This document shows positions 16,351-25,918 of a stretch of DNA of 64,000 nt, one piece after another; position 1 is the first letter of the stretch; each line of letters begins with the position of its first letter. The DNA is taken from assembly GCF_902830275.1 (NCBI RefSeq), contig NZ_CADESW010000016.1, positions 1 to 64,000 on the forward strand, written 5' to 3'. This DNA comes from Burkholderia stagnalis. GTDB lineage: Bacteria > Pseudomonadota > Gammaproteobacteria > Burkholderiales > Burkholderiaceae. The position numbers were made by a program, and so were the translations under genes. The notes under the pieces are model-generated. The model ran no database searches. It worked only from the letters and a program-made list of their open reading frames with translations, and was not told the origin of the DNA.

Positions 16351-17829
16351 CTACTGCCCGTGTTCGTCGTCGCCCGCCGCCGCCGCGCGCTGCTCGGTGT
16401 CGGACAGGTCGCGCAGCCCGTGCGCGCCCATCAGCCGGTACAGCGTCACGCGCGAGATCCCGAGTTCCGCGGCGGCCTCCGCGAGCCGGTGACGGTGGCG
16501 CAGCAGCGCCGCTTCGATCGCGCGTTTTTCCGCGCGCTCGCGGGCCTCGGCGAGCGTCGTCGACTGCTGGGCCGTGTACTGCCCGAGATCGAGATCGGAC
16601 GCCGAGATCAGCCGGCTGTCGGCCATCACGATCGCGCGGCGGATCCGGTTGATCAGCTCGCGCACGTTGCCGGGCCACGGATAGTTGTACAGCGCCTCGA
16701 TCGCGCACGGCGTGAAGCCGCGGATCTTGCGCGCACCGTCGCTGCGGAACTTCAGCAGCACATGATGCGCGAGCAGCTCGATGTCCTTGCCGCGCGCGCG
16801 CAGCGGCGGCTCGTCGATGCGCAGCACGCACAGCCGGTGGAACAGGTCCGCACGGAAATGGCCGTCGCGCATCGCCGCTTCGAGATCGACGTGCGTCGCC
16901 GACAGGATCCGCACGTCCACCGCGATCGATTCGTGGCCGCCGAGCCGCTCGATCCGGCCTTCCTGCAGGAAGCGCAGCATGCTCGCCTGGCTCTCGAGCG
17001 GCATGTCGCCGATTTCGTCGAGGAACAGCGTGCCGCCGTGCGCGGCCTCGACGCGGCCGATCTTGCGCTGGTTCGCGCCGGTGAACGCGCCGCGCTCGTA
17101 GCCGAACAGCTCCGACTGCAGCAGGTGATGCGGGATCGCGCCGCAGTTGATCGCGACGAACGGCGCCTTGCGGCGCGTCGAGCGCTCGTGGATCGCGAGC
17201 GCGGTCAGCTCCTTGCCGGTGCCCGATTCGCCGGAGATGAACACCGTCGCGTCGGTGTTCGCGACCTTGCGGATGGTGCGGAACAGCTGCTGCATCGCAT
17301 CGCAGGTGCCGACCATCTCGTCGTCGCCGGTCGCGGCGACGTCGCTCGCGAGCTCGAGATCGCACAGCGTCACCATTCCGTACGCGTGGCCGACGAGGTA
17401 GTCGATCGTCGTGTGCGTCGGCGGGCCCTTCACGTAGTCGAAGCAGCACTGGCGGATCAGCTTGCGGATCTCGGGCTCCGCGAGGCGCACGGGATCGGCG
17501 AGCGCGATCCAGCCGATCTGCTGGTGGCGCAGGATCGGCTCGAGCGCGGCGATGTCGCGCATCGCGAAGCCGTCGAGATCGACGATGCCCGCGTGCGCAA
17601 GCTCGGGCTTCACGAGCCGCTGCGCGTCGTGCGCGGATTTCGCGCACAGCACCTCCCAGCGCCGCTCTCGCAGATGCGCGACGAGCGCCGCATCGGGGCG
17701 GCGCGACAGATACACGAGTGGCCGGACTGCAGGCAGATGGCTGGTCCCGGCCCCGTCGGAGTGCGCGATCGTGAGTCGCGGCGCGAAGCCCGGCGGGGCG
17801 GCTGATGAGACGGGGCGGGAGTCGTGCAC
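16351..17829 (-). CDS. VpsR-like sigma-54-dependent activator (paralogue 1)
   Basis: A 492-residue bacterial enhancer-binding protein. Residues 35-160 form a degenerate receiver-like domain of the VpsR type (PLVYLSRRPD, then CCFDYVKGPP), lacking the acidic pair that binds Mg2+ in true receivers. The AAA+ domain has Walker A GESGTGKE (200-207), the sigma-54 contact loop GAFTGA (247-252) and Walker [12 protein letters not shown] (265-275). A Fis-type helix-turn-helix ([20 protein letters not shown]) ends the protein. GTG 17829 is favoured by a GAGG site six bases upstream; the longer frame reads back through the barrel gene. It is the last gene of the minus-strand cluster, 25 bp after the barrel gene, and closely resembles the activator at 24518. 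VpsR binds c-di-GMP, so response to that messenger is possible. Confidence 0.88.
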   Translation of the reverse strand: MHDSRPVSSAAPPGFAPRLTIAHSDGAGTSHLPAVRPLVYLSRRPDAALVAHLRERRWEVLCAKSAHDAQRLVKPELAHAGIVDLDGFAMRDIAALEPILRHQQIGWIALADPVRLAEPEIRKLIRQCCFDYVKGPPTHTTIDYLVGHAYGMVTLCDLELASDVAATGDDEMVGTCDAMQQLFRTIRKVANTDATVFISGESGTGKELTALAIHERSTRRKAPFVAINCGAIPHHLLQSELFGYERGAFTGANQRKIGRVEAAHGGTLFLDEIGDMPLESQASMLRFLQEGRIERLGGHESIAVDVRILSATHVDLEAAMRDGHFRADLFHRLCVLRIDEPPLRARGKDIELLAHHVLLKFRSDGARKIRGFTPCAIEALYNYPWPGNVRELINRIRRAIVMADSRLISASDLDLGQYTAQQSTTLAEARERAEKRAIEAALLRHRHRLAEAAAELGISRVTLYRLMGAHGLRDLSDTEQRAAAAGDDEHGQ

Positions 17830-17854
17830 GATATCCTCGCTACGGTGTCGCGCT

Positions 17855-24133: not shown

Positions 24134-24517
24134 GAGGGGACTTGGGAGTACTGCGGATTCAAGCGAACCGCTGCAAGGACGACAATCAGCGCTACGTGTC
24201 GATGCGCAAACGGCCCCGATGCATGCGGATATATGCAGAGGAATGCCGGGCGCGATCTGCTGCGGGCGAGGCGTTGAAATCGGCTTGTCTTGTTCGACGC
24301 CTATAACTAAGCTGCTTTGACCAAAAAGAACGACACGCAAAGAAAGTCGCGGGGCTGCACGCGACATTGATGAGCGCCATCATGCGAGGCATTGCGTCGC
24401 CTTGCATTGAAATGGCGAATCGAGCCGACCCCTGGGCGTGGACCCGATTCGATTCTTTTTGCACGTGATTTGACGTGCGCTGGTAATCGTTAGACGGTTG
24501 ATGAACGGGGTGAGAGT

Positions 24518-25918
24518 ATGGAAGCCGAGCTGCGGCACGTGATCTACTATTCCCGGGAACCGAGCGATGCGCTGCGCGGGCACTTCGATGCGCGCGGCTG
24601 GCGCGTCGATCTCGCGGAGACCGCGCGCGACGTGCGGCGCGCCATCCAGCAGGGTGTCGCGACGGCCGGGCTGCTCGACTTCTCGTCGGGCTTCAAGCCG
24701 GCCGACCTGCGCGAACTCGAACCCTGCCTGACGATTCCCCACATCGGCTGGATCGCGGCCACGCAGCGCGGCCAGTTGCAGGATGCGACGCTGCGCCACC
24801 TGATCCGCGACTACTGCTTCGACTACGTGACGATGCCGTTCGAGACGACGCGCATCGTCGAGACCGTCGGCCACGCGCACGGCATGGTCGCGCTGACCGA
24901 GCCGGTCACGCCGCAACCGGGCGCCGGGCGCGGCGAAGGCGAGATGGTCGGCACCTGCGATGCGATGCTCGCGCTCTTCAAGATGATTCGCCGGGTCGCG
25001 ACGACCGATGCGCCGGTGTTCATCTCCGGCGAGTCGGGCACCGGCAAGGAGCTGACGGCCGTCGCGATTCACGAGCGTTCGTCGCGCGCGCAGGCGCCGT
25101 TCGTCGCGATCAATTGCGGCGCGATTCCGTCGACGCTGCTGCAGGCCGAGCTGTTCGGCTACGAGCGCGGTGCGTTCACCGGCGCGAACCAGCGCAAGAC
25201 CGGCCGCGTCGAAGCGGCGCATGGCGGCACGCTGTTCCTCGACGAGATCGGCGACCTGCCGCTCGAGAGCCAGGCGAGCCTGCTGCGCTTCCTGCAGGAA
25301 GGCAAGATCGAGCGGCTCGGTGCGCACGTGTCGATTCCGGTCGACGTCCGGGTGATCTGCGCGACGCACGTCGACATGCAGGCGGCGCTGCGTGACGGGC
25401 GCTTCCGCGAGGACCTGTTCCACCGGCTCTGCGTGCTGAGGGTCGAGGAACCGCCGCTGCGCGCGCGCGGCAAGGACATCGAGGTGCTCGCGCGACACAT
25501 GCTCGAGCGCTTCAAGGGCGATTCGCATCGCCGCCTGCGCGGCTTCTCGCCGGACGCGATCGCGGCGCTGTACGGCTATCCGTGGCCCGGCAACGTGCGC
25601 GAGCTGATCAACCGGGTGCGCCGCGCGATCGTGATGTCGGAGGGCAGGACGATCACCGCGGCGGATCTCGAGCTGAACGACTATGCGGTGCTGGCGCCCA
25701 TCTCGCTCGTCGAGGCGCGCGAGGCGGCGGAGCGCCAGGCGATCGAGCATGCGCTGCTGCGGCATCGCGGCCGGTTTGCCGATGCGGCGCGCGAGCTCGG
25801 CGTGTCGCGCGTCACGCTGTACCGGCTGATGTGCGCACACGGCATGCGCGACCGCAGCGACGGCGCACTGGCCGGGTTTCCGGCGCCGCTGCCGGACCTT
25901 CCGCGGCACGCTTGCTAA
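24518..25918 (+). CDS. VpsR-like sigma-54-dependent activator (paralogue 2)
   Basis: A 466-residue enhancer-binding protein, very similar throughout to the activator at 16351-17829. The N-terminal VpsR-type domain ([20 protein letters not shown], then [18 protein letters not shown]) lacks canonical receiver acidic residues. AAA+ motifs are Walker A GESGTGKE (171-178), GAFTGA (218-223) and Walker [12 protein letters not shown] (236-246), and the Fis-type helix-turn-helix contains [19 protein letters not shown]. The start ATG 24518 follows a GGGGTGAG site. It is divergent from the secreted-protein cluster, a typical place for its regulator, and ends 40 bp before thyA. A pair of paralogous activators at opposite ends of one cluster suggests layered control. 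VpsR-type proteins in Vibrio and Burkholderia respond to c-di-GMP. Confidence 0.9.

Follow-up and report, generated by a model that had tools for sequence, protein, structure and literature searches.

The window, a 64,000-nucleotide stretch of the Burkholderia stagnalis genome (positions 1 to 64,000 of contig NZ_CADESW010000016.1), contains an operon for a functional amyloid of the Fap type, X-fapABCDEF. Systems of this known kind export amyloid fibres that serve in biofilms. The first gene, X, appears to be an undescribed addition to the known system. We propose that the operon is served by a sigma-54-type promoter and two VpsR-type activators (Reg1 and Reg2), and that FapD acts in the periplasm as a double-glycine protease, with FapE and X as its substrates (probability roughly 0.68). 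We infer this role for FapD from a leader motif in both proteins, from the loss of the leader of X along with the fap genes, and from structural models. If correct, this gives exact candidate cut sites in FapE and a second candidate substrate, X, for a protease that the secretion of Fap requires.

The six genes after X match the NCBIfam profiles for FapA to FapF, in the same order as in Pseudomonas (Table 1). The barrel protein scores 346 bits against the FapF profile (the equivalog cut-off of 700 bits is a threshold for annotation), and it aligns with the solved structure of FapF over 303 residues. On these matches, we rejected the reading of the cluster as something other than Fap; a barrel without kinship to FapF would have refuted the first-pass annotation, and here the kinship is clear. 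The first-pass annotation of this region had already suggested a Fap-type system in one operon, with counterparts of FapB and FapC (two Gly-Asn-Gln repeat proteins), FapD, and FapF, and the profile comparisons bear this out in part: they agree with Fap as the system, with FapD, and with FapF. By eye, FapB and FapC have three clear repeats of the GN/NQ type each. That annotation found no Fap counterpart for a Ser-rich subunit, for two small proteins with a leader-like motif, or for the gene at 23107-23589. The Ser-rich subunit is FapC, and its Ser-rich stretch is a linker; the gene at 23107-23589 is fapA; and one of the two small proteins is FapE, which leaves X. A suggestion that this might be a distinct branch of Fap holds only for X and for the flanking VpsR-type activators; otherwise, the system is Fap.

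As for what is published on FapD, PMC5557850 reports, in its passages on this protease, that secretion of FapC requires the FapD cysteine and that the target of FapD is unclear. The same passages state that the Fap proteins lack canonical C39 sequences and that, in mass spectra, the N-terminus was fully processed in FapE alone. A motif that ends with Gly-Arg or Gly-Lys would explain the statement about canonical sequences. Also, the residue before the proposed cut in FapE is Arg or Lys, and trypsin would produce the same end, so earlier trypsin-based mass spectrometry could have missed the site. A 2025 review states, where it discusses FapD, that it is "thought to" process FapE and FapF (PMC12822426). 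A 2025 survey of 1602 fap clusters relied on profiles for fap genes that were already known, so it would not have counted a seventh. In the open-licence PMC literature, we found neither an extra fap gene nor a known FapD site.

Leader motifs in X and FapE

In substrates of C39 peptidases, positions -12 and -7 are hydrophobic, -2 is Gly, and -1 is in most cases Gly or Ala; a helix precedes the cut site. C39 enzymes usually cut at Gly-Gly. We searched for relatives of FapD in a genome collection and used the best 80 of 103 confirmed places (the 80 loci below), which are all from Burkholderiaceae (75 from outside Pandoraea and 5 from Pandoraea). X is present at every one of these loci (75/75 and 5/5). 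The C39-type leader pattern is present in X and in FapE at all 80 loci, and in both proteins positions -12, -7, and -2 always fit. Position -1 is Gly in most X and Arg in some, and is Lys or Arg in FapE. The leader-like motif that the first-pass annotation pointed out in two small proteins turned out to be the most informative part of the cluster.

X consists of a Sec signal, a variable stretch, the leader, and a remainder of 50-58 residues (53 in the window). Within the remainder, VTLWDE is invariant across 30 aligned sequences from several genera. The leader in the window is LDEDTLSRQRGR (residues 56-67), and in most Paraburkholderia it is LDDQxLSRQRGG or a near variant. The ending is complete in all 78 extracted sequences: it is Gly-Gly, Gly-Arg (the form in the window and its closest relatives, and in some other loci), or, once, Gly-Ser. 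The leader of FapE is VDDDVLAHQTGK (residues 51-62), with a predicted cut after Lys62. In a model of FapE, residues 1-61 have low confidence and a helix at 53-60 is the only element there; the beta domain begins at residue 67, with block values of the predicted local distance difference test score (pLDDT) of about 90. In a structure search with this model, no hit reached E = 0.001. In the model of X, the only helix of at least 4 residues is at 58-65 and ends before Gly66 (low confidence).

To score leaders, we used a profile of 15 leader words, all taken from FapE proteins outside the family. Among 80 signal-like open reading frames (ORFs) in the window, X ranked first (11.5) and FapE second (9.4), and the next score was 6.6. 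Across 1976 signal-like ORFs from the 80 loci, 101 had scores of at least 11; these were 77 X, 22 FapE, and two others, which are a FapE that our labelling had missed (L103) and an opposite-strand ORF (L065).

The pattern extends beyond the family. At 18 of 19 loci around FapD-type proteases from outside Burkholderiaceae (L110-L128), a signal-peptide-like ORF with the leader pattern lies next to fapD; L127 has none. An example is LKDSEMAELRGR in L112, where FapD passes the NCBIfam cut-off. In the full set of 30 short loci to which these 19 belong (the window's own locus and one more from Burkholderiaceae are among them), we found a leader match in 26 and none at L127, L134, L136, or L139. The match at L135 is in a coiled-coil protein, and one of the three at L138 is in the protease itself.

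FapB has an element in its linker (VSDTELSET in the window) that resembles the first half of the leader and has no Gly pair. A VSDxELS-type pattern matched in 61 of the 80 loci, and by eye the other 19 carry variants (VADGVLS, for example). FapB-like ORFs from several loci outside the family contain elements that look similar. In the window, the VSDTELSET stretch is encoded within a perfect inverted repeat with 14-base arms (22616-22649).

We did not find a described family for X in Pfam or, for the three members that we scanned, in NCBIfam. (Against Pfam, 30 members matched three families between them, each through one member only, at E = 0.07-0.1.) X does not look like a shortened FapE, as the profiles of the two align over just the 30 columns around the leader (probability 64%). 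X had no match in the PLSDB plasmids at E = 1e-5. Among 398 genomes from across the phylum, X matched in four, which are all Burkholderiaceae; this search scored at most 9 candidates per genome.

Loss of the fap genes

In the genus, 25 of 25 genomes have a relative of X (by a profile of X), while the operon's FapF is present in 5 of 25. We compared 20 folA-thyA loci that lack fapA-F: 19 come from genomes without the operon, of which there are 20 (G017 was left out), and one is from G024, which has an intact fap copy elsewhere in its genome. All 20 loci have kept X with VTLWDE and the promoter, and none has kept the leader. The best leader score for X without the operon was 2.7, as compared to a minimum of 8.5 for the 78 X with the operon. 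A decayed leader, VDAGVFARQRER, is still readable in X from L147. A short match to FapB is left in 7/20 loci and Reg1 is kept in 3/20. So, the leader follows FapD, and the promoter and VTLWDE do not.

In a tree of four neighbour proteins from 37 loci (the 20 without fap and 17 chosen loci with fap), the losses fall into no fewer than three lineages. One is a large cluster, another is L149, which is placed next to the window (support of 87), and a further one is L147. L148 is placed in the large cluster with poor support, and its X resembles X from L149. L148 is the folA-thyA locus of G024 and has a leaderless X, Reg1, and Reg2; the fap operon of G024, with X and Reg1 (L021), is apart from it. 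This arrangement could be due to relocation or to regain.

For the leaderless X, the median ratio of nonsynonymous to synonymous substitution rates (dN/dS) was 0.53, from the 184 of 190 pairs with dS of 0.1 to 1.5. This suggests only moderate selection and so lends little weight to a retained function.

Candidate substrates of FapD

FapD is the free-standing C39 peptidase of the operon. Its Cys65, His149, and Asp165 (numbered by hand from the ATG at 20897) are in register with those of solved double-glycine proteases and are kept in all 80 relatives, as expected from the first-pass annotation's description of the active site as intact.

FapE might be the only substrate of FapD. X would then be a periplasmic protein of the same regulon, and its leader-like helix would be an uncut docking site for FapD or FapF. 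The persistence of X with its VTLWDE part after the loss of fap is consistent with this, and the element in FapB, which has no Gly pair, suggests that uncut leader-like helices may exist. However, the Gly ending is complete in every X that we extracted, and the leader of X is a better match than that of FapE, so we consider this explanation to be unlikely.

We think it is rather improbable that the main target of FapD is FapF, at the junction of the coiled coil and the barrel, with the motifs in FapE and X serving as recognition helices only. Cleavage at this junction was suggested in the part of PMC5557850 on FapD targets. The coil ends with LEMAQRGRG or something close to it in 7 FapF sequences from Fap systems, and it ends with a stretch like a full leader (LDNRELAAKRGA and variants) in 3 of 5 barrels from a second system (L024-L028; see below). 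On the other hand, the spacing in FapF from Fap systems is off by one and its profile scores are mostly poor (the exception is 9.9 in the five Pandoraea), while X fits well.

Finally, X has a short remainder behind a leader of the double-glycine type, and C39 peptidases usually mature bacteriocins (as stated in a passage of PMC5557850), but none of the seven genes is an evident candidate for immunity, VTLWDE is invariant, unlike in fast-changing bacteriocins, and X is kept after the exporter is lost. So, it is highly implausible that X resembles a bacteriocin and makes use of the Fap exporter for its release.

Several observations weigh against our proposal that FapD cuts FapE and X. Cleavage, export, and amyloid formation are predictions for this system. 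The motifs in the window end with Gly-Arg (X) and Gly-Lys (FapE) instead of Gly-Gly. All six Fap proteins score below the NCBIfam equivalog cut-offs, and among the 398 genomes, FapD passes its cut-off in 8, with 93 matching at E = 0.001. The model of X has a pLDDT of just 57. On the leader profile, at least 10 FapD proteins score 10.3 through a false match; and the 80 FapE sequences have a median of 9.4 and go down to 5.3, a range that they share with many unrelated ORFs (67 in the bin for scores of 5-6). Because of these low FapE scores and false FapD matches, the profile is decisive for X and not for FapE. Four genomes without fap (G011, G014, G018, and G022) contain a second FapD-like protease, so the leader was lost there despite the presence of a related protease. 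As there were few losses, the loss of the leader along with fap is suggestive but is not a strong count. And as X persists without fap, its remainder seems to act independently of Fap.

With these caveats, we predict that the system works as follows. Reg1 and Reg2, which probably respond to high cyclic di-GMP, would activate the promoter before X. All seven products would cross the inner membrane by Sec, as judged from their signal peptides. In the periplasm, FapD would bind the short helix of the leader, which comes after the Sec signal in FapE and X, and, going by the motif, the losses, and the models, would cut after Gly61-Lys62 in FapE and after Gly66-Arg67 in X. FapA would hold FapC. The trimmed domain of FapE and the 53-residue peptide from X would exit through FapF along with FapB and FapC. 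FapE may act in export and in fibre attachment. The weakest step is the role of X; our best guess, with low confidence, is a minor accessory part in the fibre or at the gate for export.

More broadly, FapD and its relatives may define a Sec-dependent double-glycine pathway: a second leader, of the C39 type, follows the signal peptide; a periplasmic C39 peptidase removes it; and a barrel of the FapF type lets the product out. In Burkholderiaceae, both FapE and a 50-58 residue peptide, X, would be released in this way. As X outlives fap with its promoter and an activator but without its leader, it would also have a role apart from Fap, with VpsR-type control unchanged. We would give this broader reading even odds.

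The locus and similar systems

The seven operon genes are consecutive on the minus strand at 17855-23999, between folA (15781-16281) and thyA (25959-26930), and by eye, all of their products have N-termini like signal peptides. This agrees with the first-pass annotation. The start of fapB overlaps the stop of fapA by 4 bases, and the widest intergenic gap in the operon is 115 bp. The interval that had been annotated as the cluster (16351-25918) does contain it, and it also contains Reg1 and Reg2, one on each side, which went unmentioned. The assembly has 149 contigs and 8.03 Mb. The nearest named relative at this locus is Burkholderia sp. SRS-46 (97% identity for FapD), and the other closest named relatives are also Burkholderia.

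Table 1. Features of the fap locus in the window. Values are E values against the profile or structure that is named.
Feature	Positions	Strand	Preferred start	Evidence
Reg1, sigma-54 activator with VpsR domain	16351..17829	-	GTG at 17829 (inferred)	Pfam VpsR 6e-22, Sigma54_activat 9e-70
fapF, coiled coil and outer-membrane barrel	17855..19237	-	19237	NCBIfam FapF 2.2e-103; PDB 5o65 7.4e-83
fapE, leader VDDDVLAHQTGK	19353..20180	-	20180	NCBIfam FapE 1.9e-10
fapD, C39 peptidase with Sec signal	20187..20897	-	20897	NCBIfam FapD 1.8e-61
fapC, major subunit with long Ser-rich linker	20969..22411	-	22411	NCBIfam FapC 4.6e-14
fapB, minor subunit	22436..23110	-	23110	NCBIfam FapB 4.2e-20
fapA, chaperone	23107..23589	-	23589	NCBIfam FapA 5.4e-9
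Gene X, signal peptide, C39-type leader LDEDTLSRQRGR, and remainder	23637..23999	-	23999	No family in Pfam or NCBIfam
Sigma-54-type promoter TGGCATGCATTTCGCT	24027..24042	-		43 bp before X
Reg2, divergent sigma-54 activator with VpsR domain	24518..25918	+		Pfam VpsR 5e-20

The fap locus is old and stable in Burkholderiaceae. The 75 loci from outside Pandoraea have Reg2, X, fapA-F, and Reg1 in this order as far as each stretch reaches, and the locus is almost always between thyA and folA. The one exception to the order is L063, which has no Reg2 within 7 kb before X. The usual thyA is missing at L032, L095, and L099, and several of the locus stretches end early. The same gene order is found in Burkholderia, Paraburkholderia, Trinickia, and Pararobbsia, which excludes chance. 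In these relatives Reg1 follows fapF and Reg2 adjoins X. In the five Pandoraea loci, the arrangement of the regulators differs; X precedes fapA and is recognizable only by its leader and VTLWDE. Two of these (L107 near 13465 and L108 near 10684, on the minus strand) have a second protein with VRLWDEV after fapF, on the opposite strand and without a clear leader.

A sigma-54-type site, TGGCA[CT]N5TCGCT, precedes X in all 78 loci that we scanned (two pairs are from the same contig, as L020 and L022 are taken to duplicate L030 and L031). In the 75 loci L030-L104, it begins 42-45 bp before the start of X in 73 and 28 bp before it in two. Reg1 and Reg2 are presumably of the same type as BerB. In B. 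cenocepacia, biofilm genes are controlled by RpoN and the cyclic di-GMP effector BerB, according to PMC5552954.

As compared to Fap from Pseudomonas, this locus is alike in its six genes and their order, its FapF barrel, its C39 peptidase with intact active-site residues, and its repeat subunits. It differs by the additional first gene X, the Ser-rich linker of FapC, the two activators with VpsR domains, and the conserved sigma-54-type promoter before X. The relatives of this FapC have a median length of 468 residues with 15.6% Ser; FapC linkers are described as varying strongly in a passage of PMC3792158. That study (Dueholm et al. 2013) implies, where it covers this genus, that some Burkholderia have Fap and that the B. 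cepacia complex lacks fap genes, and a 2018 review lists B. cepacia among the species that encode Fap (PMC6173800). Since Fap has already been published for Burkholderia, we do not count the operon as a discovery. In these two papers, the passages on Burkholderia mention no extra gene, leader, or promoter; what appears to be new here is X as a seventh gene and the specific proposal for the substrates of FapD.

FapD and FapF also match proteins from Fil, a putative pilus system (FilB at E = 1e-33 and FilC at E = 2e-20 in NCBIfam), but the Fap profiles score much higher and the Burkholderia locus contains subunits of the FapB/FapC type. For the C39 peptidases of ATP-binding cassette (ABC) exporters, we take the substrate leader to have the same pattern as in X and FapE. 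These peptidases (PDB 6mpz and 4ry2) have the catalytic Cys/His/Asp and the domain length in common with FapD. In contrast, FapD stands alone and carries a Sec signal, which probably places its activity beyond the inner membrane, and its putative substrates are themselves exported by Sec.

In 6 of the 25 genomes of the genus, there is a second FapF-like protein, next to a protein that resembles FapD. Other Burkholderiales (L024-L028) also have a second FapF/FapD-like system, with its own small secreted proteins that have leaders like MTPDQLDQHRGG.

Adjoining thyA in the window is a gene for a large secreted protein with many repeats like NGAPPNAPRPLNGEAPNASRF (27016-29991, minus strand), and a relative of this protein lies beside thyA in most of the related loci.

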